From positions 1 through 64,000 of IMG/VR virus record IMGVR_UViG_3300017783_000010: a stretch of DNA of 64,000 nt. One strand, written 5' to 3'. Within the stretch, counting starts at the first letter, position 1. Every line of letters starts with the position of its first letter. Under the pieces are notes generated by a model. The model made no database searches and was not told the DNA's origin. It saw only the letters and a program-made list of their open reading frames with translations. Source of the DNA: a virus. The position numbers and the translations under genes are program-made. Shown piece after piece: positions 11,601 to 34,336 of the stretch.

Positions 11601-11666
11601 TATTATTTTTGATTCGTAGGCAAGATAAGGAATTATTTTGAAAGATGCAATAGATAAATAAAAAAA

Positions 11667-11693: not shown

Positions 11694-11730
11694 CGATAAG
11701 AAACAACAACTATATAAATAAACTTATGTT

Positions 11731-12282: not shown

Positions 12283-12528
12283 AAAAAAAATGTTACACCT
12301 CAATGATACTCTGAATACTAAGATAAAAAATTGTGGTATTAGGTATCTTTAGAGATGCAACATTAATCTAACCATATTCGCTAACCTCTGACCAACGTAC
12401 CATAAACCTTTCAAGAACAAATATAAGCTATTTTCTGCCTCTTGTCAAGTTTTAGGTCAAGTTTTTTTTATATTTTTTTTTTATTTTGCATTATAATAAT
12501 AAAAATATGTTAAAATTTTTAAATGGTC

Positions 12529-12559
12529 TTGACTTTAGGAAAAAAAAGCTGTAACTTTG
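12529..12559 (+). promoter_or_regulatory. Early rightward promoter
   Basis: TTG at 12529-12531 (within TTGACTTT), a 20-bp spacer and TAACTTTG at 12552-12559. This is the first promoter of the large rightward replication module; transcription would begin about 330 bp before the first gene. Confidence 0.75.
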
Positions 12560-13272: not shown

Positions 13273-13274
13273 AT

Positions 13275-14639
13275 ATGCACAAAGAATTTGAAAGGGATAT
13301 TCTTCGATACCTAATTCAAGAAAATCAAGGTGTTGAGTATATAAAGCAGATAGACTCCGATTATTTTAGCTATGAGGAGAATAAGTTTGCTTTCAGCTAC
13401 ATGAAGCTGTATGTAGAGCGAAATAACTTTATCGCTCCTCGAAACTCATTATACCGATTTGTGTATGATGAGTTAGGCTTGACCGAGACCAACCTAAAAA
13501 TAGATGATATTATAAAGGATATTTATAAGCCTTATGAATCGGTCAGGTCTGAGTTATTCATAACCGTAAAAGAATACCTACAAAAGCAGTCAATAATTAA
13601 GTTATTAGCTTCTATTGAGGACTTGTCTTCTTTAAGTGATGTCGATTATTCTAGGATTGCAAACAAAATATCTGCGATTGCTAAATTAGATGCTAATGAG
13701 AATTTGTATCCTGCGGACAAGTTCGTAAGAAAAGACTTTTCTGCTACAATGCCTTCTTATGAATTGAGTATTCCATCTTTTTTAGAGGGGTTAAATAGTT
13801 TAAGAACAACTGGGGGGTTTCAAAGCCCTGAGTTGTCTGTAATTGTATCAGGAGCAAAAGGTTTTAAGACTGGTATGCTACTTAATATTGCGGTTGATTA
13901 TATGTTGAAGGGTATGAATATAATCTATATAGATTGTGAGAATGGTACTGACCAGATTAATGCCCGAATAAAGCAGATTATTGCAGGCAACTGCACCCAT
14001 AAAGAGTTATATGATAAGGATATACAAGAGAATTTGCGTAAGCGTATGCAGTTTTTATCTAGTAATTTCTTGACTGAGGCGGGAGATATTGCTATCTGTT
14101 ATGTACCTAGTGGCAGTCATTTTGATGTAGTAGAGGCTAAGATTGAGGAAAAGATTAGAGATGGATTTAGGCCAGACATCATAATTTATGATTATATTGA
14201 TAAGTTTACATCAGGCTCTCATAAAGGGCATGAAGACAGCCAGAAAAACTATGATCGTGCTATTGTATTGAATAATAAGTTTAATACATTTAGTTTTACG
14301 GTATCTCAGACTAACAGAGATGGCCTAGAAGCTACTACTTTGACTGCTGCTAACCTAGCGAAGGATTTTCAGAAGGTATCGAATGCTCATGCTGTATTTG
14401 CATTAAATCGTAATCGCTATGAGTTAGATAATGGGCTTGCGCATTTAACTCCGCTTGCACAGCGTGCAGGTGAGAGATATATTCAAGGGAAGAATGAGGT
14501 ATTCTTAAAAATTGATGAGTCAATACAGTTAGTAGAGGAGATTACTGACCCTGTTGAAAAGATTAGATTATATGAGGAAATATTTGATACAGTTGTAGAG
14601 CATGATATTGATTTATCAGATAATATAGATATACTATGA
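13275..14639 (+). CDS. DnaB-like replicative helicase
   Basis: 454 residues. The RecA-type core has Walker A GAKGFKTG (about 191-198), Walker B PDIIIYDYIDK (about 300-310), and the DnaB-type FTVSQTNRDG (H3/sensor). The first 110 residues are helical (DILRYLIQEN...) as in the N-terminal domain of phage DnaB proteins. Expected role: hexameric 5'-3' helicase at the phage fork. The stop overlaps the primase start (ATGA-type coupling). Confidence 0.85.
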   Translation: MHKEFERDILRYLIQENQGVEYIKQIDSDYFSYEENKFAFSYMKLYVERNNFIAPRNSLYRFVYDELGLTETNLKIDDIIKDIYKPYESVRSELFITVKEYLQKQSIIKLLASIEDLSSLSDVDYSRIANKISAIAKLDANENLYPADKFVRKDFSATMPSYELSIPSFLEGLNSLRTTGGFQSPELSVIVSGAKGFKTGMLLNIAVDYMLKGMNIIYIDCENGTDQINARIKQIIAGNCTHKELYDKDIQENLRKRMQFLSSNFLTEAGDIAICYVPSGSHFDVVEAKIEEKIRDGFRPDIIIYDYIDKFTSGSHKGHEDSQKNYDRAIVLNNKFNTFSFTVSQTNRDGLEATTLTAANLAKDFQKVSNAHAVFALNRNRYELDNGLAHLTPLAQRAGERYIQGKNEVFLKIDESIQLVEEITDPVEKIRLYEEIFDTVVEHDIDLSDNIDIL

Positions 14640-15616
14640 CAACAAAGATATTTAATTTTCTTCAAGATAAGTTACAATTCCAGTCAACGTGTACTGATTG
14701 GTACAGATTTAAGCATATAGAGTCTAAATCGTATTCTAAGAACTGTGCGTATAATCCTTCTATTGACACGGTTATAAACTTCTCTACAAAGCATGATTTT
14801 AAGTCTATGTCAGGCTTTAAGTATGCTATGCGTTATATCACAAAGCAAGATTATAATAACACAAAAGCTATAATTTATAGCTATGAGGGGGTTGAGTTTG
14901 ATAGGGATAGAGCAGCTTTATATCGTTTAAATACTGCTAGTTATCAAGATAATTACGTAGGAAAGACTAAAAGCTACTTAAATAGTGTTTCTGAGAGTAT
15001 TTTATCTAGTTCCGATATTGCTACGGCAGCAAGGAAGTATCTTGAATCTAGGGGAATCAGCGATTACCAAGCTGATTTCTATGGATTACGTGTTGGTATC
15101 AAGGATAAGTATATTAACAGGATAATTATACCTTTTTTTGAGGATAAAAAGATAGTATATTTTAATGCTAGAGATTTTACGAGTACTAGTCGATTAAAGT
15201 ATATAAACCCTACTAAGGAGGAAGCAGATTATAGTGCTAGAAGTTGTATTTATAATATAGATTGTTTAAATACTTATGATACAATCTATGTTGTAGAGGG
15301 GGCATTTGATGCTATGATGGTAGGAAGTGATTGTATAGCTTTAGGTAGTTATACATTAAAGAGAGAGCAACTAGATAAACTAATAAATACTTCGAAAAAA
15401 CATTACATATTTATCCCTGATTTTGAGGGGTATGAACAATTTAAGAAGCAAGCTAAAAAATTGTGTGTATTTCATAAAGTATCAATGTTAGATACTAGAA
15501 ATCTTGGTGAGGGTGATCCTTGCTTATGGGGTAGGGATAAGGTTTTATCTTGCTCGCAATTGTCTGCCTTAGCCATCGAAAAAAAAGTTAACCAACAAAA
15601 ATATTCATTTTTATGA
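14636..15616 (+). CDS. DNA primase (TOPRIM)
   Basis: 326 residues. A DnaG-like core with YLESRGISDYQADFYGLRVG, IIIPFF..KKIVYFNARDF and the TOPRIM signature VVEGAFDAMM (about residue 218), followed by a FIPDFEGY segment matching the TOPRIM DxD region. No N-terminal zinc-binding domain with Cys pairs is evident, so it is shorter than bacterial DnaG. Translationally coupled to the helicase (4-bp overlap), as in phage primase-helicase pairs. Confidence 0.8.
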   Translation: MTTKIFNFLQDKLQFQSTCTDWYRFKHIESKSYSKNCAYNPSIDTVINFSTKHDFKSMSGFKYAMRYITKQDYNNTKAIIYSYEGVEFDRDRAALYRLNTASYQDNYVGKTKSYLNSVSESILSSSDIATAARKYLESRGISDYQADFYGLRVGIKDKYINRIIIPFFEDKKIVYFNARDFTSTSRLKYINPTKEEADYSARSCIYNIDCLNTYDTIYVVEGAFDAMMVGSDCIALGSYTLKREQLDKLINTSKKHYIFIPDFEGYEQFKKQAKKLCVFHKVSMLDTRNLGEGDPCLWGRDKVLSCSQLSALAIEKKVNQQKYSFL

Positions 15617-16347
15617 TTAGTATACAAGAAACAGATTTGATGCTTTTATTAGTAAATAGAGGATTCACAAAAAATGCTGCTGACAATCTTATTACAGCTA
15701 TAAAGAGGTCAGTAGACTCTAAGGTAACAAATGACAGGTCAGATATTGAGAAGAGATACGGAATCAGTGCGGATACTAAGCTTATCCATATGCTGTGGCA
15801 GAGATATTGTATTTATATAAATATTAAGCCTAACTCAAAATTAAAGGGTGTAAGCCTAAATTTGGTTAGGGATGCGTGCATTTGCTTGCAATATATTTGT
15901 ATAGAATTAGGGATGGACTTAGATTTACAAACTATAGATCGTTTCTTAAAGTATTCACATTATATTAGTGAGAAGTCTGGTTATACTAGATTATCCTTGA
16001 GAGCTTTATCTTATAATACGGATAAGGTATTAGAAGTATTTAATAAGGCGAATATAGTAAAGGAATCTGGGGATTTCACATTGATACGTAGAATGCAGAG
16101 AAAATATGCACGCTGCTTAAAAATAAACATGGTAGCAGAACTTGACAATGTAGAAAATATTTATTATTTTTATACAGCATTACAGAACATAAAAAGGCAT
16201 ACTTCCTATAATGAGAAGAGCAGCGAGAAAATGGTTGACCTATTCATTCATAATAATATGTCTTACTGGAAGGATAAAGGGGTAATACCTACCCCAAAGA
16301 GTTTAGCGGACATAAGAGCGTTGTCCGCACTAAGCAAATTAAAATAA
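15613..16347 (+). CDS. Hypothetical replication-module protein
   Basis: 244 residues, mostly helical, basic. Overlaps the primase by 4 bp and precedes another small basic gene by 5 bp. No motif recognised. Position between primase and SF2 helicase suggests a replication or recombination accessory role. Confidence 0.5.
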   Translation: MISIQETDLMLLLVNRGFTKNAADNLITAIKRSVDSKVTNDRSDIEKRYGISADTKLIHMLWQRYCIYINIKPNSKLKGVSLNLVRDACICLQYICIELGMDLDLQTIDRFLKYSHYISEKSGYTRLSLRALSYNTDKVLEVFNKANIVKESGDFTLIRRMQRKYARCLKINMVAELDNVENIYYFYTALQNIKRHTSYNEKSSEKMVDLFIHNNMSYWKDKGVIPTPKSLADIRALSALSKLK

Positions 16348-16352
16348 AATAA

Positions 16353-16691
16353 ATGCTAAAAAAGAAAATTAAGAAATACCAGTTTGATATTCTACAAGAG
16401 AATATACATATTCAGAATGATGCGCCTGTTGGAGCAGATATGAAGGTGTCTTATCGTAAAGAGCTAGAAAATTACCTTCATACTAATGGTATGACTATCA
16501 AACAGTTAAGTCAAAAATACACTAAAGAGCGTATGACAGCTCGTATGAGAGGGAGATTATTAACGGCTTATACTAAAGCTGTTCATATATATTCTCCTGT
16601 TGGAAGAAATGTATTAGCAGAGGAACTAGGAAAGACTGAAAGCCAATTAAACTCATTATTGAAGGCATTAAGAAACCGCAAAGTAAAATGA
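16353..16691 (+). CDS. Small basic helical protein
   Basis: 112 residues, Lys/Arg-rich. The C-terminal segment (NVLAEELGKTESQLNSLLKALRNRK) reads like a helix-turn-helix, so DNA binding is possible. Overlaps the downstream helicase by 4 bp. Confidence 0.5.
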   Translation: MLKKKIKKYQFDILQENIHIQNDAPVGADMKVSYRKELENYLHTNGMTIKQLSQKYTKERMTARMRGRLLTAYTKAVHIYSPVGRNVLAEELGKTESQLNSLLKALRNRKVK

Positions 16692-18082
16692 GAATAAAGA
16701 TAGATAACCTACATGGTATATGTGATTATACACATCCTAAATTTCAAGCACTGAGAGAAGAATATAAGGTAGCTAATCCTGATTATTGGAGAGCAGTAAA
16801 GATGTCCCCTTATGCTCAGAAGTATTATTACTTCATTACTCAAAAAGGTAAGTTTAGTTTAGGGCATTTGCCCGCAATTGTGCGCTTATGCGATCAGCTA
16901 GACATCTCTATTGAGGTTGAGGATACTAGATTGCATAAGCAAATATTTAAACCTTTCAGTAAGCAGCTAGGGGAGTATACCTTATATGACCATCAATATA
17001 AAGCATTACAGCTTTCTAGTAATACCTTGACTATTTCTGGTCAATATATACCCTATAATAGAGGTATATATAAGATGGCTACGAATAGTGGTAAATCCTT
17101 TATTATTGCAAGCAAATGCGTGCATCTAAATGAAGGGCATAAAGCTGTAATATTTGTTCATACAGTAGACCTACTAAACCAGTTCTTTAAAACACTAAAG
17201 AATTTTGGATTAAATGTAGGCACATTTGGAGGTAAACATAAAAAGACTTCTGTATTTCTTGATTGTGATGTAATCATATCTACCTACAAATCTTATCTAT
17301 CTTATCACACAAAATCTAGGGATGTAAAAGCATTCACAAAGTCGGTAGATTTACTGATTGTAGATGAATGTCACAGAGCATCAGCAAAAGATTATGCTAG
17401 AACTATTAAACTTTTTAAAAATGCAACAAATTTTTATGGCTTTAGTGGTACACCATTCAAGAATGTGATATTAGCAGATAAAAACGTTCAAGGATTATTT
17501 GGAGATATCCTCATGGAGGTAAGTAATGAGGATATGCAAAAGATAGGTGTATCATTAACTCCTGTCGTAAAAATGTATGAAGTAGAATGCGATTATTTTT
17601 ATTCTTATCAAGAATCTTATGAGAATAATATCGTATTCTCGCAAGCTAGAGTAGATAAGATGGCTCAATATATTAAACATAATCCAGACCGTCAAATACT
17701 AATCCCTGTTAAACGGCTAGATCATGGTAAGTTTATATATGAGGCTTTACATAAAATTTGTGATTGTAGATTTCTTTCAGCTACTCACAAATTTAGAGAC
17801 TATCTATTTGAGCAGTATAGTAAAAAGGAGTATCAAGTTCTCATTACTACGCTTGGTCAAGAAGGATTAAACTTGCCAATTGACGCATTAATTTATGCTA
17901 GAGCAGAAGAGTCGATTGTAAGCCTTCTTCAATATATAGGCAGAATATTAAGGCTAGAGGGCACTACTAAAAATATTGAGATTGTAGATTTCTATGATAA
18001 AGACAATAAAAACCTAGAGAAGCATAGCAAGAAAAGACTTCAAATATACAATAAAGAAAAATTTAAAATAGAAAATAATTAA
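16688..18082 (+). CDS. SF2 helicase (UvsW/DEAD-like)
   Basis: 464 residues. Motif I ATNSGKS (about 130-136), motif II DECH (about 226), motif III SGTPF, and motif VI QYIGRILR are visible, with an N-terminal extension of about 90 residues. The layout matches T4 UvsW-like helicases that act on recombination and replication forks. Last classic replication gene before cassette array A. Confidence 0.85.
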   Translation: MRIKIDNLHGICDYTHPKFQALREEYKVANPDYWRAVKMSPYAQKYYYFITQKGKFSLGHLPAIVRLCDQLDISIEVEDTRLHKQIFKPFSKQLGEYTLYDHQYKALQLSSNTLTISGQYIPYNRGIYKMATNSGKSFIIASKCVHLNEGHKAVIFVHTVDLLNQFFKTLKNFGLNVGTFGGKHKKTSVFLDCDVIISTYKSYLSYHTKSRDVKAFTKSVDLLIVDECHRASAKDYARTIKLFKNATNFYGFSGTPFKNVILADKNVQGLFGDILMEVSNEDMQKIGVSLTPVVKMYEVECDYFYSYQESYENNIVFSQARVDKMAQYIKHNPDRQILIPVKRLDHGKFIYEALHKICDCRFLSATHKFRDYLFEQYSKKEYQVLITTLGQEGLNLPIDALIYARAEESIVSLLQYIGRILRLEGTTKNIEIVDFYDKDNKNLEKHSKKRLQIYNKEKFKIENN

Positions 18083-18088
18083 TAAAGG

Positions 18089-18139
18089 GTAATAACTTTA
18101 AAAACAAGCACTGCAGAGGTTATTACTTATAAAAATTTT
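18089..18139 (+). terminator. Inverted repeat, likely terminator
   Basis: GTAATAAC (18089-18096) pairs with GTTATTAC (18119-18126), followed by an A/T tail with four T. It separates the helicase gene from the first R' box of array A. It could also be the degraded left half of the first attC site. Confidence 0.5.
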
Positions 18140-18157
18140 GTGGTGCGTTAATTTATT

Positions 18158-18376
18158 ATGGAAACATTACTTAAAATGCTAAATGTTATTTCTTGGATAT
18201 GTGTAACTGGATGTCCGTTAGTAATAGTAATAAAGGTATGTCTACAAAGCAAGTATGAAAACTCATTAGATGAAAAAATAGATATGCTAAAAGGTGTAAA
18301 AACTGTATACACACGTGGACTATTAAAGTTGAGTATATTATTTGTAGTCGCGTTAGTCTATTTGATTGTGCGATAA
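18158..18376 (+). CDS. Cassette gene: two-TM membrane protein
   Basis: 72 residues with hydrophobic stretches at about 8-28 and 54-71, separated by a charged loop. Cassette ends: TTGTGGTGC (18138-18146) before and GCACCACAA after. Unknown function. Confidence 0.6.
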   Translation: METLLKMLNVISWICVTGCPLVIVIKVCLQSKYENSLDEKIDMLKGVKTVYTRGLLKLSILFVVALVYLIVR

Positions 18377-18377
18377 T

Positions 18378-18440
18378 GCACCACAACGCTAAATGTAAAA
18401 AGCGTTTAGGAACGAAATGATTAGTTACATAATGTTATAA
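18378..18440 (+). other. attC-like site A1
   Basis: R'' GCACCACAACG (18378-18388), L'' AAATGTAA, L' TTACAT (18425-18430), R' ATGTTATA. 63 bp. Pairing is AATGTAA with TTACAT and AAC with GTT. Confidence 0.6.
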
Positions 18441-18449
18441 ATTTTAATT

Positions 18450-18581
18450 ATGGATATAGAAAAGGAATTTGAAGAACTAAAAGAACTAATAAAAGACACT
18501 TACGAGTTTATGGATAGAGACAAACTTGACAAGGCTTTAGAAAAACTTGAAAAAATAAGGGTAGACGTGATTGGCAAGTAA
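18450..18581 (+). CDS. Cassette gene: small acidic helical protein
   Basis: 43 residues (MDIEKEFEELKELIKD...), heptad-like Leu/Ile spacing suggests one amphipathic helix. ATG directly follows the R' of site A1 and the stop precedes the R'' of A2. Too short for homology calls. Confidence 0.5.
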   Translation: MDIEKEFEELKELIKDTYEFMDRDKLDKALEKLEKIRVDVIGK

Positions 18582-18587
18582 ATGTTT

Positions 18588-18719
18588 GCTAACGGACGAG
18601 TACAAGGTGTCGTAGCGACCTAAACAGCACGAAACATTGAATTATAAACAACTTAAATAGATACAAAATGAACTTAATTAAAACACTTACTCGCTATGCA
18701 CTTTGTACATTGTTAGTTG
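18588..18719 (+). other. attC-like site A2, loop encodes next gene's start
   Basis: R'' GCTAACGG (18588-18595), L'' GAGTACAAGG, L' CTTTGTAC (18701-18708), R' TGTTAGTTG (18711-18719). 132 bp. The loop holds the ATG at 18668 and the first residues of the following lipoprotein. Confidence 0.65.
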
Positions 18720-18979
18720 TCTGGGCGACTTCTTGCACGGACTCTCGTTTTAAATTACTGAACCGAAATAAAAACGTAGAAATAGGCGATGTTTATTTAT
18801 ATAGCCACGATTGGGATGAAGAAGACCCATTTGCTAAGATAGAAATAGACACAGTAAGGGTGATTGATGTAAAAGATGGTTATGTAAAATGGCTTTATAA
18901 ATTAAGTGAAAAAGATAGTAGTTTTTATTTGAGTGGAAAACTAAAGTATTTTAAGCACAACATTAAGCCTTTCAACTAA
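18668..18979 (+). CDS. Cassette gene: lipoprotein
   Basis: 103 residues with a bacterial lipoprotein signal: basic start, hydrophobic core ALCTLLVVWA and lipobox ATSC. The cassette boundary (R' box) falls inside the signal sequence, so the first 15 or so residues come from the preceding attC loop. Mature part is charged (IGDVYLYSHDWDEEDPF). Periplasmic or outer-membrane location inferred; superinfection exclusion would fit but is speculative. Confidence 0.6.
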   Translation: MNLIKTLTRYALCTLLVVWATSCTDSRFKLLNRNKNVEIGDVYLYSHDWDEEDPFAKIEIDTVRVIDVKDGYVKWLYKLSEKDSSFYLSGKLKYFKHNIKPFN

Positions 18980-19070
18980 TGTTGAATCTATAAAGCGTGG
19001 CGACACGCACAGTATTAATTATTAACCTTTAACAAGTCCTAGCCATGATTTTATAGATAGTGTTAGGCAC
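18973..19070 (+). other. attC-like site A3
   Basis: R'' CAACTAATG (18973-18981), L'' ATCTATAAA, L' TTTATAGAT (19050-19058, perfect 9-bp pairing), R' TGTTAGGCAC (19061-19070). 98 bp. R'' has AAT where others have AAC. Confidence 0.7.
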
Positions 19071-19076
19071 AGTTTT

Positions 19077-19316
19077 ATGAGATGGAAAGATAAAAATAAT
19101 GACGGGTTTTATAAAGGTAAAAACAAAGGGTTTTACTTTACTATATCACATGCAAGAGACTATGATGCTTTTTATGTTGTTGCATCCCATCAAAAGAAAG
19201 ATATTAGATTAAACACTTTGTGGGAAAATAAGACTTTTAAAACATTTGAATTAGCAGAAGAGTTTTGTAAAACCTTTGACTATAGAAAACACAGATGTAT
19301 AGGTGACAATACTTAA
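19077..19316 (+). CDS. Cassette gene: hypothetical
   Basis: 79 residues (MRWKDKNNDGFYKGKNKGFYFTI...), basic and aromatic, unknown. It is flanked by GTTAGGCACA and TGTGCCTAAC. Confidence 0.6.
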   Translation: MRWKDKNNDGFYKGKNKGFYFTISHARDYDAFYVVASHQKKDIRLNTLWENKTFKTFELAEEFCKTFDYRKHRCIGDNT

Positions 19317-19318
19317 TT

Positions 19319-19442
19319 GTGCCTAACGGTTTATGTATGAGCCGTTGAAATCTAATAAACTTAATAAAAAATTAAACAATGAATAAAGCAAAAAGTAAAT
19401 TAATAGAAGCTAAAAAATGGCTTATACATTTTGTTATGGTGC
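19319..19442 (+). other. attC-like site A4, loop with start codon
   Basis: R'' GTGCCTAACGG (19319-19329), L'' ATGTATGAGCC (19333-19343), L' GGCTTATACAT (19419-19429, one mismatch), R' TTGTTATGGTGC (19431-19442). 124 bp. An ATG at 19379 in the loop opens a frame that runs into the next cassette. Confidence 0.75.
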
Positions 19443-19669
19443 GTATATTTTTAATAAGTACGCACAAACGCCAAAACTACTTAATAGATAAACACGCAAG
19501 TATGTTTTTAGGGTTACAGAACATAGCAAAAAAGTACGATAATGACGGAGATGTTAGGACAGCAATGTACATTAGTAGTAAAAGCTACGAACATTTAAAT
19601 TGGTTTGCTGAATACTGCGGAGTTTTGAATATAGACCAAGTTAAAAGGATGCGACAATATGCACCATAA
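19436..19669 (+). CDS. Cassette gene: hypothetical, ambiguous start
   Basis: Three in-frame starts are possible: 19379 in the attC loop (96 residues), 19436 inside the R' box (77 residues, used here), or 19502 (55 residues). The longer form would add MNKAKSKLIEAKKWLIHF from the attC. The conserved-looking part is FLGLQNIAKKYDNDGDVRTAMYI. The stop codon TAA is part of the R'' box. Unknown function. Confidence 0.5.
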   Translation: MVRIFLISTHKRQNYLIDKHASMFLGLQNIAKKYDNDGDVRTAMYISSKSYEHLNWFAEYCGVLNIDQVKRMRQYAP

Positions 19670-19760
19670 CGGATTACGGCTAAACTGCGTTGCCGAAGAA
19701 ATGCAGTATCAATTAAACACATAAGATTATGAGCAATGAAGTTTTAGCCGATGTTAGCTT
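19661..19760 (+). other. attC-like site A5, loop with start codon
   Basis: R'' GCACCATAACGG (19661-19672), L'' CGGCTAAACT (19677-19686), L' AGTTTTAGCCG (19740-19750, one extra T that would be extrahelical), R' ATGTTAGCTT (19751-19760). 100 bp. The ATG at 19729 lies in the loop. Confidence 0.75.
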
Positions 19761-19929
19761 TCCGTTATTCCAAGATTTATATGGTAGCTACGTTCAAATG
19801 GATGATAGATTTGAAACGGTGCATATATGGAGTGAGAAACTAGCAATGAAAAACAAAGGTAGGTGGAAGCCATTATTAATTAGCAAGAAATTGTATGACC
19901 AAGAAAAAAAGCACTCTTGGAATAATTGA
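19729..19929 (+). CDS. Cassette gene: hypothetical
   Basis: 66 residues from the ATG in the attC loop; an in-frame ATG at 19798 would give a protein wholly inside the cassette. Contains YVQMDDRFETVHIW and a basic C-terminus. Unknown. Confidence 0.5.
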   Translation: MSNEVLADVSFPLFQDLYGSYVQMDDRFETVHIWSEKLAMKNKGRWKPLLISKKLYDQEKKHSWNN

Positions 19930-20027
19930 AGCTAACGGACGAGTGTATGAAAAAGTAGCCCATACATGGACGTTCGGAATTATTACAAAACTTAATTAGG
20001 CTATTTTTTATACACATTGTTAGCTTT
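19928..20027 (+). other. attC-like site A6 (best example)
   Basis: R'' GAAGCTAACGG, L'' GTGTATGAAAAAGTAGCC (19943-19960), L' GGCTATTTTTTATACAC (19999-20015), R' GTTAGCTTT (20019-20027). L'' and L' pair over 17 bp with one unpaired base, matching the extrahelical bases of real attC sites. Confidence 0.85.
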
Positions 20028-20060
20028 TCGTTTGGAAATCTAGCACAAAACTTAATAGAA

Positions 20061-20351
20061 ATGAACAGTTTATCACACAAAAGTTATGGGGCAATTTATG
20101 TTAATAACCCTAAAGACATTAAAAAAGTAAAAGAAGTAATTAAAGAAATGGATGAGTTTGAATTTGACTATTTGCCATCAGAACTAATAAAGCCTTTTGC
20201 TGAATATCCTGCTGTTTGCTACACACATAAATTCTCTGATTTAGACACAGATGATTTAACAGCAAAATGTTGGGCAAAAGGAATTATGATTTGGGTGTTT
20301 GACGCAAGAACGGAATATCCTAAAAATGCACTAAGCGAAAATGAAAGCTAA
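20061..20351 (+). CDS. Cassette gene: hypothetical
   Basis: 96 residues, acidic (IKEMDEFEFDYLPSELIKPF), Trp-rich C-terminal part. The TAA stop is inside the R'' box AAAGCTAAC. Last gene of array A. Unknown function. Confidence 0.6.
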   Translation: MNSLSHKSYGAIYVNNPKDIKKVKEVIKEMDEFEFDYLPSELIKPFAEYPAVCYTHKFSDLDTDDLTAKCWAKGIMIWVFDARTEYPKNALSENES

Positions 20352-20382
20352 CATAGTATATAAGACATATAGCTGATATTTT
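20344..20382 (+). other. Terminal site of array A
   Basis: R'' AAAGCTAAC followed by ATAGTATAT and then AAGACATATAGCTG. Array B ends with the same AACATAGTATAT followed by the reverse complement of this inner segment (13 of 14 bases). Shared end sites suggest a common anchoring or insertion point. Confidence 0.65.
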
Positions 20383-20386
20383 TTAG

Positions 20387-20417
20387 GATTTGCTTGCAAT
20401 TGCGCGCAAATCTTTTT
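20387..20417 (+). terminator. Intrinsic terminator after array A
   Basis: Stem GATTTGC/GCAAATC with the loop TTGCAATTGCGC, then five T. Nearly the same module, followed by a similar TCATTA.CTAATTAAA segment, recurs at 28941. Confidence 0.8.
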
Positions 20418-20452
20418 AACTTGGCCTCATTAACTAATTAAAAATATAAGAT

Positions 20453-20644
20453 ATGCTACGTTTAGTTGTTTTAGTAATTTATTGTAAGATGCAAGCATTT
20501 GCTTGTGGTAGTATTGAATCTCCTGATACGTGTATGGAGATGGTATATGATACTACTAAATATGTCGTATCAATAGATTCCTTTAAGTATACTAATTTTA
20601 TGGAAGAGGGAGTTTGTTTTATTCATGTGGATACTTTAAAATAA
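20453..20644 (+). CDS. Small exported protein candidate
   Basis: 63 residues. The N-terminus MLRLVVLVIYCKMQAFA looks like a short signal sequence; two Cys follow (CGSIESPDTCMEM). Preceded by the terminator-linked promoter region. Unknown. Confidence 0.5.
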   Translation: MLRLVVLVIYCKMQAFACGSIESPDTCMEMVYDTTKYVVSIDSFKYTNFMEEGVCFIHVDTLK

Positions 20645-20653
20645 GATAAAATA

Positions 20654-21844
20654 ATGAAACAAGAAAAAATATTAAATGGGATTGCTTTCATTGAGATGGC
20701 TGTAGAAATATTAAAGCCCCGATCATTAGAGCAAAAATGTAAAAAGGTATATACTAGAAACACCTATATTTCTTATGTGTTTCAATTATTATCCATTTTA
20801 ACAGGATTAAGTTTTATAGGGTATATAGGTAATGAACTTAAAGGAGTATTGTTTATCATATCTTCTTTAGTTTTATTCATTTTGCTTGCAATGATTGAGG
20901 CAAGTAAAAGAATACTAATAAAAGATATAGCTAAACTTTATTTTTCTGAAAATGAGATAAAGTATGTATCTTTATTTTTGTTGGTTATTATATTAGCTGC
21001 TTCTGCTAGTATTAGTTATGTGGGAGGCAGTAAAATACCTTCTGTGATTGTGTCAAGCCAGTCTATTGATTCAACTCAAGTAGCAGAGGTTATTCCTTCT
21101 ATTCAACTAGACTATACTAGAAATCAACTAGATTCAATAGCTAAGTCAATCAGAAAGCAAGAAGCGACTACATATAGAGGAAAAGTAGTTAGGACGGCTA
21201 ACAATAATTTAACAATACTATATGACCAACAATCAGAATATCAAAGTACTCTTTTAGAGTTAGAAAAGGAGCATCAAAAAAAGTTAGATGCTAGGAATCA
21301 AGCTTTAGCTGCTATAAAAGAAACTAGAGATTTAAAAATAGAAGGTGTCGGATACATCTTTGGAGGAGTAGCTGTTTTTAGTGATATTATGTTAGTGTTT
21401 CTTTTATACTTTGCGTATAATTCCTTGAGAAAAGTTTATAAAAAACATCAAACAAGTACTATACTAAATGCTTATAATGTAACGTTAGAAGAAACGCAAG
21501 TACTTGCTAAAGTACCTGAAATCAAGGAGTTACATGAGCCAAAAGTAACGTTACAAGAAACGCTAGAAGAAAAAGTAACGTTACAAGAAACGCTAGAAGA
21601 AACGCAAGAAGAAAAAGTAGCGTTACAAGAAACGCAAGAAGAAAAAGTAAAAACGGAAGAGGCTACTATAAAAAATGTTCTAAAGATGCCTAAAGCTAAA
21701 ACTAAAAAAGTCGAAGTAGTAAAAGGACATTCTAAACAAAGGCGTTGTGATAACTGCGGAGCATCTTATGAATATAAAAGACCAAGTTCGAGGTTTTGTA
21801 GTTCAAAATGTAGATTAGAAAACCATCAAAATAAAAATAAGTAA
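20654..21844 (+). CDS. Membrane protein with coiled coil and zinc finger
   Basis: 396 residues. Hydrophobic segments at about 38-60, 66-90, 105-125 and 235-260 indicate up to four TM helices. A coiled coil (about 150-230) lies between TM3 and TM4. The C-terminal tail has repeated VTLQETLEE units, then a Cys4 zinc finger CDNCGASY...RFCSSKC. The tail repeats coincide with an AACGC/AACGTT DNA cluster, so their sequence may be set by DNA-level selection. 1-bp overlap with the polymerase gene. It could tether phage DNA or replication proteins to the membrane (inference). Confidence 0.6.
   Translation: MKQEKILNGIAFIEMAVEILKPRSLEQKCKKVYTRNTYISYVFQLLSILTGLSFIGYIGNELKGVLFIISSLVLFILLAMIEASKRILIKDIAKLYFSENEIKYVSLFLLVIILAASASISYVGGSKIPSVIVSSQSIDSTQVAEVIPSIQLDYTRNQLDSIAKSIRKQEATTYRGKVVRTANNNLTILYDQQSEYQSTLLELEKEHQKKLDARNQALAAIKETRDLKIEGVGYIFGGVAVFSDIMLVFLLYFAYNSLRKVYKKHQTSTILNAYNVTLEETQVLAKVPEIKELHEPKVTLQETLEEKVTLQETLEETQEEKVALQETQEEKVKTEEATIKNVLKMPKAKTKKVEVVKGHSKQRRCDNCGASYEYKRPSSRFCSSKCRLENHQNKNK
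21480..21655. repeat. AACGC/AACGTT-word cluster 2
   Basis: Inside the tail region of the membrane-protein gene: five AACGC, one GCGTT and three AACGTT within 175 bp, mostly in Thr-Leu or Thr-Gln codons. Confidence 0.75.
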
Positions 21845-23970
21845 TGAAAGATATACCTCATAAAATTATAATGGATTTAGTAGACTTAGAGAAAATATTG
21901 GATTCTTGTGTAAAGTCTAAGTTATTTTGTTGCGATTTTGAAACTAATACTGTAAATCCTTTTGATGATGATGCCTTAGCTACAATATTAGGATTTACTA
22001 ATAGAGAGGATTTAATTTATATTCTACCTATTTATAATGTAGAGGGTACTGTTAGCGAAGAGTTTGTCAAAAAATCTTTTGACCTTATTGCATCAAAGAT
22101 ATTATCAAATTCGAATGTTAGGGTAATCGCACATAATCTTCAATATGAGTTACATTTCTTTAGATTATGTATGAATAATTATGACTTTGACTTTAAATGT
22201 GAGTTGCATGATACGATGGTTATGAGTCATTTTATGAACGAAAATCGTAGGCATGGCCTAAAAGGCTTGGTAAATACATTCATAAAATCATATGCAGGCT
22301 ATGAAAGCGAGTTAAGTCAGTATATGACTGAGAAGAATGATTACTATAATATAAAGTTAGAGCATCTAGCTAGATATTGTGCTATTGATGTTTATGTTAC
22401 CTTAAAACTTTTTGTGATGTTCGAGAAAAGGTTGAAAGGAGATGATGAGCATAAAAGGTTATGGGAATGTTATAGTAAAATTAAGATGCCTGCATTGCTC
22501 GCTCTTAATGAGGCTACCTCAAAGGGGATGCATATAGATTTAGAGTTGCTTGCAACTACAATAGAAAAGGTAACAAAAATACAAGAGCAGAAATATGAGG
22601 CTATACTCTCTTCTAATGTTCTTCAAGAATTTCAGTTTGCTAAACGTAAAGAAGCATATGATGCTAGGGTATCTTTATGTAGGGCTAAGATGAAGGAATA
22701 TAAAGAGCAAGGAAAGAGGGCTTTTTATAAAAGATGGTCTACTAATTTAGATAAAGCTAATAATAAGCCTAGTGAGGAATGGTATTCTATAAATTTGAAT
22801 AGTCCTGCTCAGATGAAAGAATTAATATATACTCATCGTAAAGGATTTAATTATTCTTCTTTAGGTTTATCTAGTGAAACAACAGATTCGTATCAACTAA
22901 TGGAAATATACCGAATTTTTCCATATAATACTTTTTTAGTTAATTTGCTTGCTTATAGGACAGTGAGTAAAATACTAAATACTTATCTGATAGGTATAAG
23001 AGATAGGCTAGATGGAGATAAAATACATGGTAGGTTTAACATTAATGGTACAAAAACAGGCCGCATATCAAGTTCAGACCCAAATTTACAAAATTTAATT
23101 TCTCGTTCATCTATTGATGATGCGGACGTTCAAGATACTATCAAAATAGTAAAAAAGCTATTTATTGCTCCACAGGGGTATGATTTCGTACAGATTGATT
23201 ATGCCACTATGGAGTTGAGAATTGCGGCGGCTTTTGCGGATGAAGGTAATATGATTAAAGCCTTTGCTAACGGTGAGGATTTACACGCTAAAACGGCGGC
23301 TAATGTTCTTGAGGGAGTCTCTGTAGAGGAATTTAATACTTATGAGAAGTCAAAAAGAAAAAAGATCAGATTCAAGGCGAAAGCCGTTAATTTTGGATTT
23401 CTTTATGGGATGAGTGCAGAGTCTTTTAAGGACTATGTTAAGAATATGACTGGACAAATTGTAAGTAGCGAAGAGGCTGTTCATATTAGAAATAAGTTTT
23501 TTAAAACTTATTCTAATCTTACCGATTGGTACACTAAGAGTAGCTCCTTTGTAACAAAATATTCATTTGTTAGGACATTCTTTGGTACTAAGAGAAGAGT
23601 AGGCTACTTATTTAATACTACTGAGAAGTATAAGATAAAAAGTCTCTCAGTAAACGCCCCAGTTCAAGGTACTAGCGGGTTATGGACTCTGGCGGCTATT
23701 GCTGAAATATATAAAGAATTTAAAAATAATGATTCGGTGGTGATAGCTAACACTATACATGATAGTGTTATATTTTATGTGAAAAGAGATCAAGACTATA
23801 ATAGAAATCTACTAAGGATTCGTGAAATTATGGAATGGCCTTCGGTAGTAGAGGATTATCCTGCTGTAAAAACATATAAAGAAAACTTGAGGAAAATAGG
23901 ATTAAAAGTAGATTTAGAGGTTTCTTCAAAGTCTTGGGGGGATTTAAAAGAAATTGACTTTCCCTCTTGA
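21844..23970 (+). CDS. Family A DNA polymerase with 3'-5' exonuclease
   Basis: 708 residues, T7-like size. Exonuclease motif I CCDFETN (about residue 31), a later CAIDVYVT exo III-type Asp; polymerase motif A DYATMELR (about 451), motif B KAKAVNFGFLYG (about 512, with the Phe dNTP selector), motif C TIHDSVIF (about 638). Motif C has HDS where E. coli Pol I has HDE. The phage replicase. A strong promoter overlaps its 3' end. Confidence 0.9.
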   Translation: MKDIPHKIIMDLVDLEKILDSCVKSKLFCCDFETNTVNPFDDDALATILGFTNREDLIYILPIYNVEGTVSEEFVKKSFDLIASKILSNSNVRVIAHNLQYELHFFRLCMNNYDFDFKCELHDTMVMSHFMNENRRHGLKGLVNTFIKSYAGYESELSQYMTEKNDYYNIKLEHLARYCAIDVYVTLKLFVMFEKRLKGDDEHKRLWECYSKIKMPALLALNEATSKGMHIDLELLATTIEKVTKIQEQKYEAILSSNVLQEFQFAKRKEAYDARVSLCRAKMKEYKEQGKRAFYKRWSTNLDKANNKPSEEWYSINLNSPAQMKELIYTHRKGFNYSSLGLSSETTDSYQLMEIYRIFPYNTFLVNLLAYRTVSKILNTYLIGIRDRLDGDKIHGRFNINGTKTGRISSSDPNLQNLISRSSIDDADVQDTIKIVKKLFIAPQGYDFVQIDYATMELRIAAAFADEGNMIKAFANGEDLHAKTAANVLEGVSVEEFNTYEKSKRKKIRFKAKAVNFGFLYGMSAESFKDYVKNMTGQIVSSEEAVHIRNKFFKTYSNLTDWYTKSSSFVTKYSFVRTFFGTKRRVGYLFNTTEKYKIKSLSVNAPVQGTSGLWTLAAIAEIYKEFKNNDSVVIANTIHDSVIFYVKRDQDYNRNLLRIREIMEWPSVVEDYPAVKTYKENLRKIGLKVDLEVSSKSWGDLKEIDFPS

Positions 23971-23997
23971 CTTTTACTATAAAATACATTATATTTG
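23967..23997 (+). promoter_or_regulatory. Strong Bacteroidota-type promoter
   Basis: TTG at 23967-23969, 20-bp spacer, TATATTTG at 23990-23997: the best match to consensus in the window. It drives the gene at 24032 independently of the polymerase. Confidence 0.8.
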
Positions 23998-24031
23998 TAA
24001 AAGATTTTTTAACCAAAATAAGTATATATAT

Positions 24032-24733
24032 ATGTCATTTTTAGAAGCATTTCAAACGCAAGAACCGGACAGAGACTTTAATTTTTTAGCAGGCAATAAA
24101 CTAACTGAACAAGGAACTGACATTATAATCAGTAATGTTTGTTTAGGCAATAAACCCTTAAAAAAGGTTGTATTTTGGGCGGAAAAATCCCCTTATATCA
24201 GCCAAAAAACATTCAAGGAACAATGCCCCTTAGATGATGAGTTACTCGCCTTTTACAAGGCTTATCCGAAGGATTCTCCAGAAAGAGCAGCCCTGAAAAG
24301 CCAAAACAGGACTTTCTCAAAAAAGCAGCCTACCGACTTAGTTGTGTATATAATCAATGGGGATGAAGTAGATAATACCCCTGTGGTATTAAGTTGTGGT
24401 TCCGCTTTGTCTGATGCTATCTCTTCTATTTTAAGTAGCCCCCCAAAAGGCAGTAATGCGGAGGATTTTATTTTAAGCGCCAATGGTCAAGAGATATACC
24501 CGATAACGATTAGTAAATCGGGAACAGGATTGAATACCAAATATCAAGCGCAAATGCATCTCACTAAATTTGAGTTTGATTCTCCAGAGGCCATCGAATC
24601 GGCAAAGGGGGTGGATTTATTAGGTATAGCTAGAGCAGAAGCTAATAGAAAGCCTATTTATGATGCTTTAGCTTATTTCAAGGACACGGTGGTTCCTACC
24701 TGTGTAGCAGGCGAAGTAAGCGACAATATTTAG
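24032..24733 (+). CDS. Abundant replication protein, ssDNA-binding candidate
   Basis: 233 residues from ATG 24032 (upstream in-frame codons lie in the promoter). Begins MSFLEAFQTQEPDRDFNFLAGN; beta-rich middle, one Cys pair region not zinc-like. It has its own strong promoter and terminator and sits between polymerase and SbcD/SbcC genes, as single-strand binding proteins often do. No OB-fold motif can be proven by eye. Confidence 0.5.
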   Translation: MSFLEAFQTQEPDRDFNFLAGNKLTEQGTDIIISNVCLGNKPLKKVVFWAEKSPYISQKTFKEQCPLDDELLAFYKAYPKDSPERAALKSQNRTFSKKQPTDLVVYIINGDEVDNTPVVLSCGSALSDAISSILSSPPKGSNAEDFILSANGQEIYPITISKSGTGLNTKYQAQMHLTKFEFDSPEAIESAKGVDLLGIARAEANRKPIYDALAYFKDTVVPTCVAGEVSDNI

Positions 24734-24759
24734 TATGATTTTTAATTAGTTAACTATAG

Positions 24760-24795
24760 AGGATGGCTTTCATTTTATGTTAGTCATCCTTTTTA
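24760..24795 (+). terminator. Intrinsic terminator
   Basis: AGGATG/CATCCT stem followed by five T, 26 bp after the candidate SSB gene. Gives that gene a single-gene transcript. Confidence 0.75.
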
Positions 24796-24813
24796 CTTTA
24801 AATTATAATTTGT

Positions 24814-31605: not shown

Positions 31606-31812
31606 ATGGAAACTGCAAAAATATCAATAAAAATCGGGGAAGAGCTAGAAGAAACAGGAATGGTAAATGTTTGGTGGTGGAAAGATGGAAGTGAGCCAAA
31701 CCAAGAGTGGAAAACAAAAAGACCGATATGGGAGTTTCTTGATTCAAAAAAAAACATTTATGCTGACAATAGGAGAAACAATTGTAATAAAGAAATTAAA
31801 ACTAAAACGTAA
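31606..31812 (+). CDS. Cassette gene: hypothetical
   Basis: 68 residues from ATG 31606, preferred over a TTG in the promoter. Trp-rich (VNVWWWKDGSEPNQEW), basic C-terminus. First gene after the promoter cassette. Unknown. Confidence 0.55.
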   Translation: METAKISIKIGEELEETGMVNVWWWKDGSEPNQEWKTKRPIWEFLDSKKNIYADNRRNNCNKEIKTKT

Positions 31813-31833
31813 TTTCGAGTTTGTTCAGTAATG

Positions 31834-31886
31834 CAGCATAACGTTCAATGTATCGCACGTTTTAATGTGCTATACATAGTGTTAGG
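31834..31886 (+). other. attC-like site B1
   Basis: R'' CAGCATAACG, L'' ATGTATCGCAC (31848-31858), L' GTGCTATACAT (31867-31877), R' AGTGTTAGG. 53 bp; ten of eleven stem positions pair. Confidence 0.8.
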
Positions 31887-31920
31887 TTTTAGTAGAAATT
31901 ATTAAAAATTATTAAAAATT

Positions 31921-32058
31921 ATGTATTACGCAGAAAAAATAATAAACGGGATATTACATTGTAAGCACACCCCTAACGGAAAGTGGAATATTAAATGTTA
32001 CAGGGGTGATATTGATAAACCCGAAAAACAAACGGTGATACTTATTGATAAGTGGTAG
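31921..32058 (+). CDS. Cassette gene: tiny hypothetical
   Basis: 45 residues (MYYAEKIINGILHCKHTPNG...). Resembles short beta proteins of the 'NGILHCKxTPNGKW' type seen in other small ORFs; no family named. Confidence 0.5.
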   Translation: MYYAEKIINGILHCKHTPNGKWNIKCYRGDIDKPEKQTVILIDKW

Positions 32059-32063
32059 CTTGC

Positions 32064-32160
32064 GCATAACGCCTACGGCTATGAATTGAAGTCGTGTAAC
32101 AAATGTTCGATTCAAAGAAATAACCTTAACAAAGGCTTTTATTTATAGCCATTGTTAGCA
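32064..32160 (+). other. attC-like site B2
   Basis: R'' GCATAACG, L'' GGCTATGAA, L' TTTATAGCC (32142-32150), R' ATTGTTAGCA. 97 bp. Confidence 0.75.
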
Positions 32161-32172
32161 AATTTTAAAATT

Positions 32173-32364
32173 ATGATTAAAGAAATTGAAACATTGATTG
32201 ATGTAGAAGTAAGCATAAACAGAAGTATTTTAATCTACGAACTTCTTGGGTATTTTGGTGATAGACTTCCAGAAGATGTACAAACTGAAATGAGAGAACG
32301 GGCAGTAAAAGAATCCAAACAAGTTGATAAAATGACCAATAAGGTGGTTAAGCGGTTGCAATAA
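32173..32364 (+). CDS. Cassette gene: small helical protein
   Basis: 63 residues from ATG 32173; the TTG at 32152 overlaps the R' box. Helical and charged (RERAVKESKQVDKMTNKVVKRL). Unknown. Confidence 0.55.
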   Translation: MIKEIETLIDVEVSINRSILIYELLGYFGDRLPEDVQTEMRERAVKESKQVDKMTNKVVKRLQ

Positions 32365-32373
32365 TTTTTATTG

Positions 32374-32441
32374 TTGCTAACGGTTTGGCTATGTGCTGAA
32401 CGTAGAGTAACGGAGTTTTGCATATAGGTAATGTTATATGC
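32374..32441 (+). other. attC-like site B3
   Basis: R'' TTGCTAACGG, L'' GGCTATGTGC, L' GCATATAG (one G-T pair), R' ATGTTATATGC. 68 bp. Confidence 0.7.
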
Positions 32442-32471
32442 TTTTTATTAACAGATTTAAAGTAAAATATT

Positions 32472-32654
32472 ATGAAAAGATTTAATTTAAAATACAACGT
32501 AGGAAAAGTAAAGTATTTAGTTTCTTACCATAATGGAGAAAAGAAACATAAAGATGGAAGCGACTTCTTTGATATTGCTTACTTTAAAAATAAAGTAAAA
32601 CTAAATGCTTTTACGAATGAATTACTAAAACAAGGGTACGTTAATTGCATATAA
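32472..32654 (+). CDS. Cassette gene: small basic protein
   Basis: 60 residues (MKRFNLKYNVGKVKYLVSYHNG...), beta-strand then helix layout, Lys-rich. The stop TAA sits in the R'' box. Unknown. Confidence 0.55.
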   Translation: MKRFNLKYNVGKVKYLVSYHNGEKKHKDGSDFFDIAYFKNKVKLNAFTNELLKQGYVNCI

Positions 32655-32711
32655 CGGAATCGTATAAGATTTCGTGCGAGGTACGAGGATGAATTTTATA
32701 CAGTGTTACCC
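32645..32711 (+). other. attC-like site B4
   Basis: R'' TTGCATATAACGG, L'' GTATAAGATTTC (32662-32673), L' GAATTTTATAC (32691-32701), R' TGTTACCC. 67 bp. Confidence 0.75.
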
Positions 32712-33405
32712 ATCTGTATTTTTAAAAATGGCAATTAGTGAGGAACGAACTAAAATTAAAGAGAATGAGTAAGAAATATAATATTATTTATGCTGACCCA
32801 GCTTGGGAACAAAAAGCAGGTAGACCATTAAGTGGTGGCTACAAAAAAGAAAATGGTGTGCAAGTATTTAACCCTAAAAGCGATAAATCTGCAGACTTAC
32901 CTTATAGCACAATGAAGTTTGAGGATATAGTAAACTTACCTATTAAAAAACTAACTGATGATAACTGTCATTTGTATTTATGGGTTACTAATAAGTATTT
33001 AATGAAAGCTGAACAAGTTATTAAAGCTTGGGGTTTTAAATACTCTACTACTTTAGTTTGGTGTAAGAAACCAATAGGTAGTGGAATGGGGGGAACATTT
33101 AAAGTGTCTACAGAATATTTAATATTTGCTACTAAGGGTAAGGTTAATGAATTAGTAAGAGAAAAAGTAAATGGCACTTGGTTTGAAGAAAAAAGACAAT
33201 ATGTAAATGGTTATCCTTGCCATTCTAAAAAACCAGATTTCTTTTATGAATTAATAGAGAAAGTATCTAAAGGTAAAAAACTTGAATTATTTTCAAGAAA
33301 TGAGCGTAAAGATTGGGATGCTTGGGGAAATGAAATAGAAAATTCAATTACGATTGAGTAAGCACGTATGAGTGGTTGCCATTTTTAAAAATACAGATGG
33401 GTAAC
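32705..33405. repeat. 30-bp perfect inverted repeats around methylase
   Basis: 32705-32734 and 33376-33405 are exact reverse complements over 30 bp (GTTACCCATCTG... / ...CAGATGGGTAAC). The outer 7 bp are the R' and R'' boxes, so the cassette-end match extends far beyond the usual box. Confidence 0.95.
32765..33361 (+). CDS. Cassette gene: MT-A70-type adenine methyltransferase
   Basis: 198 residues from ATG 32765 (a GTG nine codons upstream lies in the inverted repeat). Motif IV is DPAW (Asp11), the MT-A70-type DPPW variant; then LPYSTMKFEDI, HLYLWVTNKYLMKA, STTLVWCKKP.GSGMGG and STEYLIFATKG. This is the phage/prophage DNA N6-adenine methylase branch. A lone methylase with no nuclease partner fits anti-restriction. 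Only cassette cargo with a clear function. Confidence 0.85.
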   Translation: MSKKYNIIYADPAWEQKAGRPLSGGYKKENGVQVFNPKSDKSADLPYSTMKFEDIVNLPIKKLTDDNCHLYLWVTNKYLMKAEQVIKAWGFKYSTTLVWCKKPIGSGMGGTFKVSTEYLIFATKGKVNELVREKVNGTWFEEKRQYVNGYPCHSKKPDFFYELIEKVSKGKKLELFSRNERKDWDAWGNEIENSITIE

Positions 33406-33496
33406 GGTTTGAATAAGATTAGTAGCGCAACGCTACACACCTTAATGGTTGCACCTGCCCTATTTGCGCTATTAATTTTATTTGTTGTTATAGGGC
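33399..33496 (+). other. attC-like site B5 (longest stem)
   Basis: R'' GGGTAACGG, L'' AATAAGATTAGTAGCGCAA (33412-33430), L' TTGCGCTATTAATTTTATT (33464-33482; 17 of 19 pair), R' GTTATAGGGC. 98 bp. Confidence 0.88.
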
Positions 33497-33512
33497 GTTT
33501 TATACTTGAATT

Positions 33513-33716
33513 ATGAATATTAATGAAGTTTTTAAAAAATACCCAAACGAAGAACCAAGCTATAATGGCGTTAACTATCTAACGCTAGTTGATGTAAATG
33601 GTAATATTAGTTATGCAATCACATATTTTAATGATAACGCAGAATTTGAACCTAAATGGGGTAAGGTAGTAGCATTTGCAGACAAACAACCAAGTGATAT
33701 TTTAAATGCCCTATAA
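33513..33716 (+). CDS. Cassette gene: small acidic hypothetical
   Basis: 67 residues (MNINEVFKKYPNEEPSYNG...). Beta-rich and acidic. The stop codon lies in R'' GCCCTATAACG. Unknown. Confidence 0.55.
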   Translation: MNINEVFKKYPNEEPSYNGVNYLTLVDVNGNISYAITYFNDNAEFEPKWGKVVAFADKQPSDILNAL

Positions 33717-33762
33717 CGTAATTGTATAACAAAAGTTACGTGAAAATAATTACTGTATTTAT

Positions 33763-33792
33763 TTGGTATGTATAAAATATTTACTATCTTTG
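33763..33792 (+). promoter_or_regulatory. Promoter of the in-loop gene pair
   Basis: TTG at 33763, 19-bp spacer, TATCTTTG at 33785-33792. The only clear promoter inside either cassette array. Confidence 0.75.
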
Positions 33793-33819
33793 TTAAACAA
33801 TAACTTAAAAACAGATATT

Positions 33820-34017
33820 ATGAGTACTACAGAAAAGACATTACAAGCCTTTACAAAAGAAGTAAACCCGCTAAATGAAAACTGCATCTGCATTTTTGAA
33901 CAAAGAGCAGTTAGAAAGCATTTACTATTCCAAATTGATAAAGCAAATTTTGAAAGCGATAACGAGTTTTTAAATGCAGTTGATTTTATACTAATTTCAT
34001 TAAATAAGAACTTGTAA
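33820..34017 (+). CDS. Hypothetical, first of a gene pair
   Basis: 65 residues from ATG 33820 (an upstream in-frame ATG lies in the promoter). Sequence MSTTEKTLQAFTKEVNPLNENC. Stop overlaps the next ATG. With the RHH-like partner, own promoter and position in a cassette array, a toxin-antitoxin-like pair is possible. Confidence 0.55.
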   Translation: MSTTEKTLQAFTKEVNPLNENCICIFEQRAVRKHLLFQIDKANFESDNEFLNAVDFILISLNKNL

Positions 34018-34166
34018 TGGCGACTAAAAAAGTAACAATTACAATCACAGACGAAATGCACCAAAAAGGAAACGACTTATCTGTTTTGGTGCTTGGGAAT
34101 GAAAACTTTAGTGGCTTAATAAGCTATATGATTAATAAACTTCATAAAGAAACGAATAGCAAGTAA
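34017..34166 (+). CDS. Ribbon-helix-helix-like small protein
   Basis: 49 residues. A basic strand KKVTITITDEM, then a helix, FSGLISYMINKLHKE: the size and strand-helix-helix pattern of RHH regulators. 1-bp overlap with the preceding gene. May autoregulate the promoter at 33763. Confidence 0.55.
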   Translation: MATKKVTITITDEMHQKGNDLSVLVLGNENFSGLISYMINKLHKETNSK

Positions 34167-34179
34167 TTTTTGTTATACG

Positions 34180-34305
34180 TTGTTATGTGCGCTTTTTGCG
34201 CTTGTAGTGGTGGTTTTAATGCACTAGTCTAGTCTAGCGAAAATACGTTGGCAATGAGGATTGTGAAACGAACTGCAACAAACTTAAACCACCATTACAC
34301 ATAAC
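34180..34305 (+). other. Non-coding cassette with long hairpin
   Basis: Between R' GTTATGTG and R'' CACATAAC there is no ORF. Inside are the small stem GCGCTTTTTGCGC and a longer pairing of GTAGTGGTGGTTT with AAACCACCATTAC. It may encode a structured RNA or be an emptied cassette. Confidence 0.55.
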
Positions 34306-34336
34306 ATAGTATATCAGCTATATGTCTGATATACTC
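34298..34336 (+). other. Terminal site of array B
   Basis: R'' CACATAAC then a perfect hairpin AGTATATCAG/CTGATATACT (34308-34335). The same outer bases end array A, with the inner loop segment inverted. Confidence 0.7.

Follow-up and report, generated by a model that had tools for sequence, protein, structure and literature searches.

Array A at positions 18138-20351 is, with a probability of about 0.7, a mobile cassette array of the integron type that resides in a phage without an integrase gene and would be served in trans by an integron-type integrase of Bacteroidota. The window, which is the complete stretch of 64,000 nucleotides analyzed, is part of a viral record of 69,723 bases. A tailed phage was confirmed because this record contains genes for a terminase, a tape-measure protein, a DnaB-like helicase, and a thymidylate synthase; the phage is probably a virus of Bacteroidota-type bacteria. 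With respect to tyrosine recombinases, no match to PF00589 was found anywhere in the 69,723 bases. The absence of a nearby integrase gene, as it defines a CALIN, a cluster of cassettes without integrase, thus applied to the phage record.

Seven small ORFs of 43 to 103 aa are located on the plus strand of array A, with attC-type sites (R''-L''..L'-R') between them. The limits of the cassette bodies were set from the TT of R' to the AA of R''. At position 18137, the first junction of array A, a T instead of a G is ahead of the TT. The features of array A, its flanks, and a second array, array B, are as follows.

16688..18082, plus strand: helicase gene (ResIII/DEAD/Helicase_C), conserved 5' flank of array A, collinear and 92% identical in a relative
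18138..18386, plus strand: cassette body 1, ORF 18158-18376, 72 aa, R' TTGTGGTGC and R'' GCACCACAA pairing 9/9
18387..18434, plus strand: attC core 1, in the interval from R'' (body 1) to R' (body 2), weakly folded
18435..18592, plus strand: cassette body 2, ORF 18450-18581, 43 aa, own pairing weak
18593..18712, plus strand: attC core 2, hairpin score 13.2, containing the start codon of the next ORF at 18668
18713..18975, plus strand: cassette body 3, ORF 18668-18979, 103 aa, lipoprotein-like N terminus crossing R', own pairing weak
18976..19062, plus strand: attC core 3, fold z of -2.15
19063..19326, plus strand: cassette body 4, ORF 19077-19316, 79 aa, own pairing 9/9, G/T signature
19327..19433, plus strand: attC core 4, hairpin score 10.6, containing start codon 19379 in frame with the GTT (Val) of R'
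19434..19669, plus strand: cassette body 5, ORF 19379-19669, 96 aa, stop codon TAA within R'', own pairing 9/9, G/T signature
19670..19753, plus strand: attC core 5, hairpin score 13.0, containing start codon 19729 in frame with the GTT (Val) of R'
19754..19935, plus strand: cassette body 6, ORF 19729-19929, 66 aa, own pairing 7 bp
19936..20019, plus strand: attC core 6, hairpin score 14.4, fold z of -3.76
20020..20351, plus strand: cassette body 7, ORF 20061-20351, 96 aa, stop codon TAA within R'', own pairing 8 bp
20352..20379, minus strand: attI-like terminal element of array A, left half decayed, common to array B, four arrays of the relative, and contig L037
20380..20446, plus strand: terminator/leader module, 3' flank of array A, with blastn matches at 28925-28997 and in the relative
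31606..34303, plus strand: array B, second cassette array, with an MT-A70 methyltransferase at 32765-33358 and a body at 33487-33716 with the full signature
34304..34334, minus strand: attI-like terminal element of array B, complete hairpin AGTATATCAG/CTGATATACT

A Pfam search with the proteins of array A and a blastn comparison with cultured phages yielded nothing useful, and Rfam gave no match within the window. Modules resembling terminators and promoters are repeated at the borders of transcription units on both sides of the cassette arrays (20376-20446, 28925-28997, 31445-31600, and 34370-34510).

A scan for L''/L' hairpins between 18.1 and 20.4 kb revealed 4 sites, compared to a mean of 0.175 in dinucleotide shuffles, and none of the 200 shuffles reached 4. 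This confirmed the arrangement given in the preliminary description, seven tiny same-strand genes with attC-type sites between them. At least two attC-type sites with R''-L''-L'-R' symmetry, as in a CALIN, are therefore present in array A, as judged from the hairpin scan plus the fold of site 6 and not from a curated attC model. When the six sites were folded by free energy, only site 6 (19926-20028, z of -3.76, 0/200 shuffles) and site 3 (z of -2.15) stood out, and the pairing over about 17 bp described before for the best site was found again in the approximately 17 pairs of site 6. Folding no better than shuffled sequence, which had been named as an argument against attC sites, was the result for the remaining four of the six sites but not for sites 3 and 6; folding energy by itself is a weak test at array A.

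Complementarity of R' with the R'' of the same cassette, as expected of a circular intermediate, had been proposed for most cassettes. It was present with 9/9 positions in bodies 1, 4, and 5, with 8 in body 7, and with 7 in body 6, and was weak in bodies 2 and 3 with 5/10 positions each. The summed own-end pairing of array A was equalled by 5 of 5,040 permutations, with no contribution from bodies 2 and 3. Self-matched ends also occur in other viruses: in the larger viral set, 9-bp own-end matches were found in 27 of 49 bodies, compared to 3/947 with foreign R' ends. A G at position +10 of R' faced a T at position -10 of R'' in 118 bodies, compared to 5 in shuffled sequences. The strict signature GTTn7G...Tn7'AAC, with a null expectation of 0.1 per 64-kb strand, was complete in three bodies of the window, 19062-19326, 19433-19669, and 33487-33716.

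The unit that moves can be deduced from a comparison that covers 53 loci of viruses and about 20 of bacteria. The viral loci were gathered by attC patterns; those of bacteria were obtained in a pattern scan, nearly all matches of which were Bacteroidota, and in a Flavobacteriaceae-family sample. When homologous bodies were situated in different contexts, the downstream core was never common, with an identity of 0.42 to 0.65 versus a background mean of 0.57, and the upstream core was fully common in the locus pairs L110/L121 and L048/L085. What moves is therefore a gene together with the attC upstream of it. Core, leader, and body travel as one in these two pairs. In L085/L089, a body identity of 99.4% was accompanied by an upstream identity of 0.69 versus a type-matched background of 0.67, which shows that the upstream boundary is exchangeable, too. 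Mosaicism of leaders and bodies had also suggested an exchange of the leader at every recombination; this was rejected, being clear for L085/L089 only versus the type-matched background mean of 0.67.

With the body-end signature used as a compass, 106 phage ORFs were in sense and 5 in antisense orientation, and 20/20 chromosomal ORFs were in antisense orientation (Fisher, 2.7e-19; the tallies include related sequences and are not independent). In R100, which served as the polarity control, aadA1 precedes an attC reading AACAATTCG...CAAGCG|TTAGAT, and chromosomal cassettes of Bacteroidota have the same sense, gene-AACAAAACCTATACGC...CATAGCCAAACCG|TT. Because the cassettes of R100 and of the Bacteroidota chromosomes both read gene and then attC in this sense, the phage genes appear to be inverted relative to attC, with the attC ahead of its gene, as judged from the resemblance of the core ends and from the breakpoints. 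The order of a CALIN, a gene followed by its own attC in the same polarity, was consequently not that of the phages (106:5 inverted; breakpoints). The integron-style reading of the cassettes persists with respect to the attC-type sites and has to be modified with respect to the genes, which are inverted relative to attC polarity in a moving unit of attC plus gene rather than gene plus attC.

The preliminary description of the cassettes missed start codons within attC and stop codons within R''. The start codon of 58 of the 106 phage ORFs is positioned upstream of R', within attC, and in 51 of these 58 the GTT of R' is read in frame as valine; 44/106 ORFs terminate at the TAA of R''. A common leader type encodes, for example, MSKELNNQEENKALHIGG-V. 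In the window, this architecture exists at 19379 and 19729, and also at 18668 in another frame; with the start inside attC, the predicted N terminus of the 19379-19669 product is MNKAKSKLIEAKKW. Alternatively, the start codons within attC may be chance open frames, with translation beginning after R'. Indeed, the start is after R' in 48/106 phage bodies, and L' might be constrained by attC pairing alone. On the other hand, a single frame is shared by the 51 of 58 upstream starts, the lipoprotein-type signal peptide of ORF 18668 crosses R', and the loop portion of the leader varies according to codon position (130/65/165 differences at positions 1, 2, and 3), with a synonymous share of 0.37 versus an expected 0.145. 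Chance frames are thus quite unlikely, and because of this codon-position bias and synonymous share, the leader encoded by attC is probably translated. The pattern of the leader type was not found in 400 Flavobacteriaceae-family genomes, although few would be expected at the density in viral contigs, so that a phage-only pool is unproven thereby.

A relative, IMGVR_UViG_3300021356_000014, is collinear with the window and about 88% identical over 11247-18086 and 20349-28997. Identical gene order in related phages was not observed: between the conserved flanks, the cassette content is entirely different, and the relative possesses other small genes with matched ends of their own, such as GTTAGGCGC/GCGCCTAAC and GTTATAGGGC/GCCCTATAAC. 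It contains a further array (L016, about 650-2610) where the window runs directly from gene to gene (28921-28985), and a minus-strand array with N6_N4 and MT-A70 methyltransferase cassettes (L004, 2681-4592), which faces just one small minus-strand ORF, ending in GGCTAAC, at 10990-11247 of the window. Because the array content differs between such close relatives, cassette turnover appears to be recent. The thymidylate synthase ORF has 462 aa in the relative (L016, 3317-4705) versus 261 aa in the window (29623-30408), the difference being an insertion of about 200 aa in the relative that keeps the frame and may be an intein or homing element.

A common element follows the last R'' at the end of seven arrays, of which the two related phages contribute six and contig L037 one. 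On the opposite strand it reads TCTGATATACYATG|TT or a close variant of it, with a full hairpin in array B and partial palindromes elsewhere; both array A and the relative show a decayed left half. The array of L038 ends with a different 22-bp palindrome. The common element was first read as the attC of the last cassette and then as a sign of an exotic cut at R''. Both readings were dropped, since the comparison with R100 and with the chromosomal kin favors inverted genes with a canonical polarity of the cut. The element may also bear some resemblance to dif. It resembles, as far as the sequences indicate, the palindrome behind the Flavobacteriaceae integrase genes that abut chromosomal arrays. 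A complete integron, an integrase gene beside attI, was not present in the phage, which has the attI-like element alone. The array had been described as one without integrase, and this is correct for the gene, but the platform is not simply absent, for an attI-like element ends the array.

Arrays that carry this body-end signature are situated directly behind a tyrosine recombinase gene in Flavobacteriaceae and Carboxylicivirga. The succession of integrase, palindrome, G|TT, and array was found in L175, L176, L178, L184, L188, L196, L197, and L205. A palindrome after the recombinase stop codon had at least 8 perfect pairs per arm in 20 of 33 cases (null, 2%), and the first cassette body begins 28 to 108 nt past this stop codon in 12 loci. 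Recombinase, palindrome, and array thus have the layout expected of a putative attI. Homologues at an E value of at most 1e-60 occurred in 72 of 151 Flavobacteriaceae-family genomes, not all of them necessarily of the array-linked type. The insertion of IntI, between the conserved catalytic patches, was absent in 10 proteins aligned with IntI1 of R100 along the catalytic region. None in the 12 genomes checked passed the TIGR02249 cut-off (the positive control R100 scored 508 bits), and at 1e-50, 0 of 121 Flavobacteriaceae-family genomes matched, again with R100 as positive control. By insertion and cut-off, the chromosomal kin do not qualify as IntI integrases. Among solved structures, the L175 protein is closest to XerC-like/XerA proteins and IntI4. 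The integrases of this group resemble IntI and Xer but are without the IntI insertion. The Flavobacteriaceae and Carboxylicivirga recombinases with arrays are possibly an unrecognised integron lineage; IntegronFinder 2.0 lists one complete integron in Bacteroidetes proper, that of Salinibacter ruber M1. PF00589 was absent in 20 of the 22 array-bearing viral records examined, which may be fragments.

In the favored explanation, the exchangeable unit is an attC hairpin with the small gene behind it, cut at the R box by CCAAACCG|TT in attC sense, which is AA|CGG in gene sense. The attC provides the gene with its 5' end, in many cases including leader and start codon, and the stop codon often comes from the R'' box. 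Growth would probably take place at the tail end of the phage operon, where the attI-like element resides, with new units reading toward this site and carrying their own translation start. The phage platform would retain the cassettes and the attI-like site and borrow the integrase, presumably of the Flavobacteriaceae type, from the host, and cargo such as methyltransferases against restriction would help the phage. A wider model stands at about even odds: in Bacteroidota, a distinct integron lineage with an integrase without the IntI-specific insertion and a palindrome just behind the integrase gene as attI; in phages, integrase-less attI-like platforms with their own inverted cassette pool, whose attC sites also encode the beginning of the cargo protein, start codon plus leader.

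Array A may also consist of ordinary cassettes, a gene and then its own attC, that IntI captured from a bacterial integron in a single event and that are now carried passively. The sites show general attC architecture, and IntI1 can recombine phage attC sites according to the available text of PMC9892861. Nevertheless, such a capture is unlikely: the downstream attC is not common to homologous bodies, the orientation of the genes relative to attC is opposite to the chromosomal one, TIGR02249 found nothing at 1e-50 in the 121 genomes that R100 controlled, and the turnover between close relatives is recent. Reshuffling by homologous recombination between the repeated hairpins and the terminator/promoter modules, without any site-specific recombination, would not require the own-end pairing of the bodies. 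Moreover, the common segments in L110/L121 and L048/L085 stop at the R box, past which core identity is at background level. This makes homologous recombination a very unlikely cause, despite terminator/leader modules that recur at array borders and cores that are in several pairs about 88 to 95% alike over 120 nt, enough for a crossover.

Phage CALINs have already been published, with 5 of 6 tested phage sites recombined by IntI1 (PMC9892861, available text), so the bare finding of an integrase-less phage cassette array is known; the polarity, the start codons in attC, and the attI-like ends add to it. Like the window, the clusters of Qi et al. (2023, PMC9892861) combine attC sites without integrase with small genes and DNA methyltransferase cargo, and Polaribacter phage P12002L, among the published CALINs, has a body with the same signature at 31120-30953. 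Unlike here, inverted genes, start codons in attC, or an attI-like end are not described in the part of that article at hand. The class 1 integron of R100 with aadA1 shares the R'/R'' plus L'/L'' hairpin site and the G|TT crossover with the window, but its gene precedes attC and the IntI1 gene is adjacent, whereas the phage has attC ahead of the gene and encodes no integrase. The chromosomal Bacteroidota arrays (L175, L176, L178) have the same core sequences and body-end signature as the phage and begin with the palindrome and then G|TT; they differ by an adjoining integrase and genes in canonical orientation. In Treponema integrons (PMC3607928, available text), the atypical feature is the orientation of intI; in the phage arrays, it is that of the genes relative to attC. 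A translated frame crosses the recombination point beside a cassette also in ORF-11 of attI1 and the gcuF1-blaOXA-28 fusion (PMC8876359), but these couple or disturb translation of single cassettes, whereas the leader encoded by attC is regular in many phage cassette proteins. A search of the open-licence literature gave no account of phage cassettes with inverted genes, of attC sites that regularly contain start codons, or of an integrase from Bacteroidota that combines a missing IntI insertion with a palindromic attI.

If this reading of array A is true, phages trade genes via the cassette recombination system of their hosts although they lack the enzyme themselves, their cassettes are organized to suit a phage operon, and the integrase-less cassette arrays of Bacteroidota viruses would be explained. 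Acquisition of the I2 helix has been regarded as the step that moved integron integrases to single-strand recombination (PMC7790495, available text), and a cassette system with an integrase without the I2 region would make this idea testable in nature.

Two short tandem-like repeats were observed in other genes of the window, one of 12/30 nt within a gene for 396 aa at 21476-21656 and one of the AAACTCGAATCTG type in a putative lipoprotein gene, plus repeated GCTCGATGGTTGG motifs, at 35800-35930 and 36560-36710.
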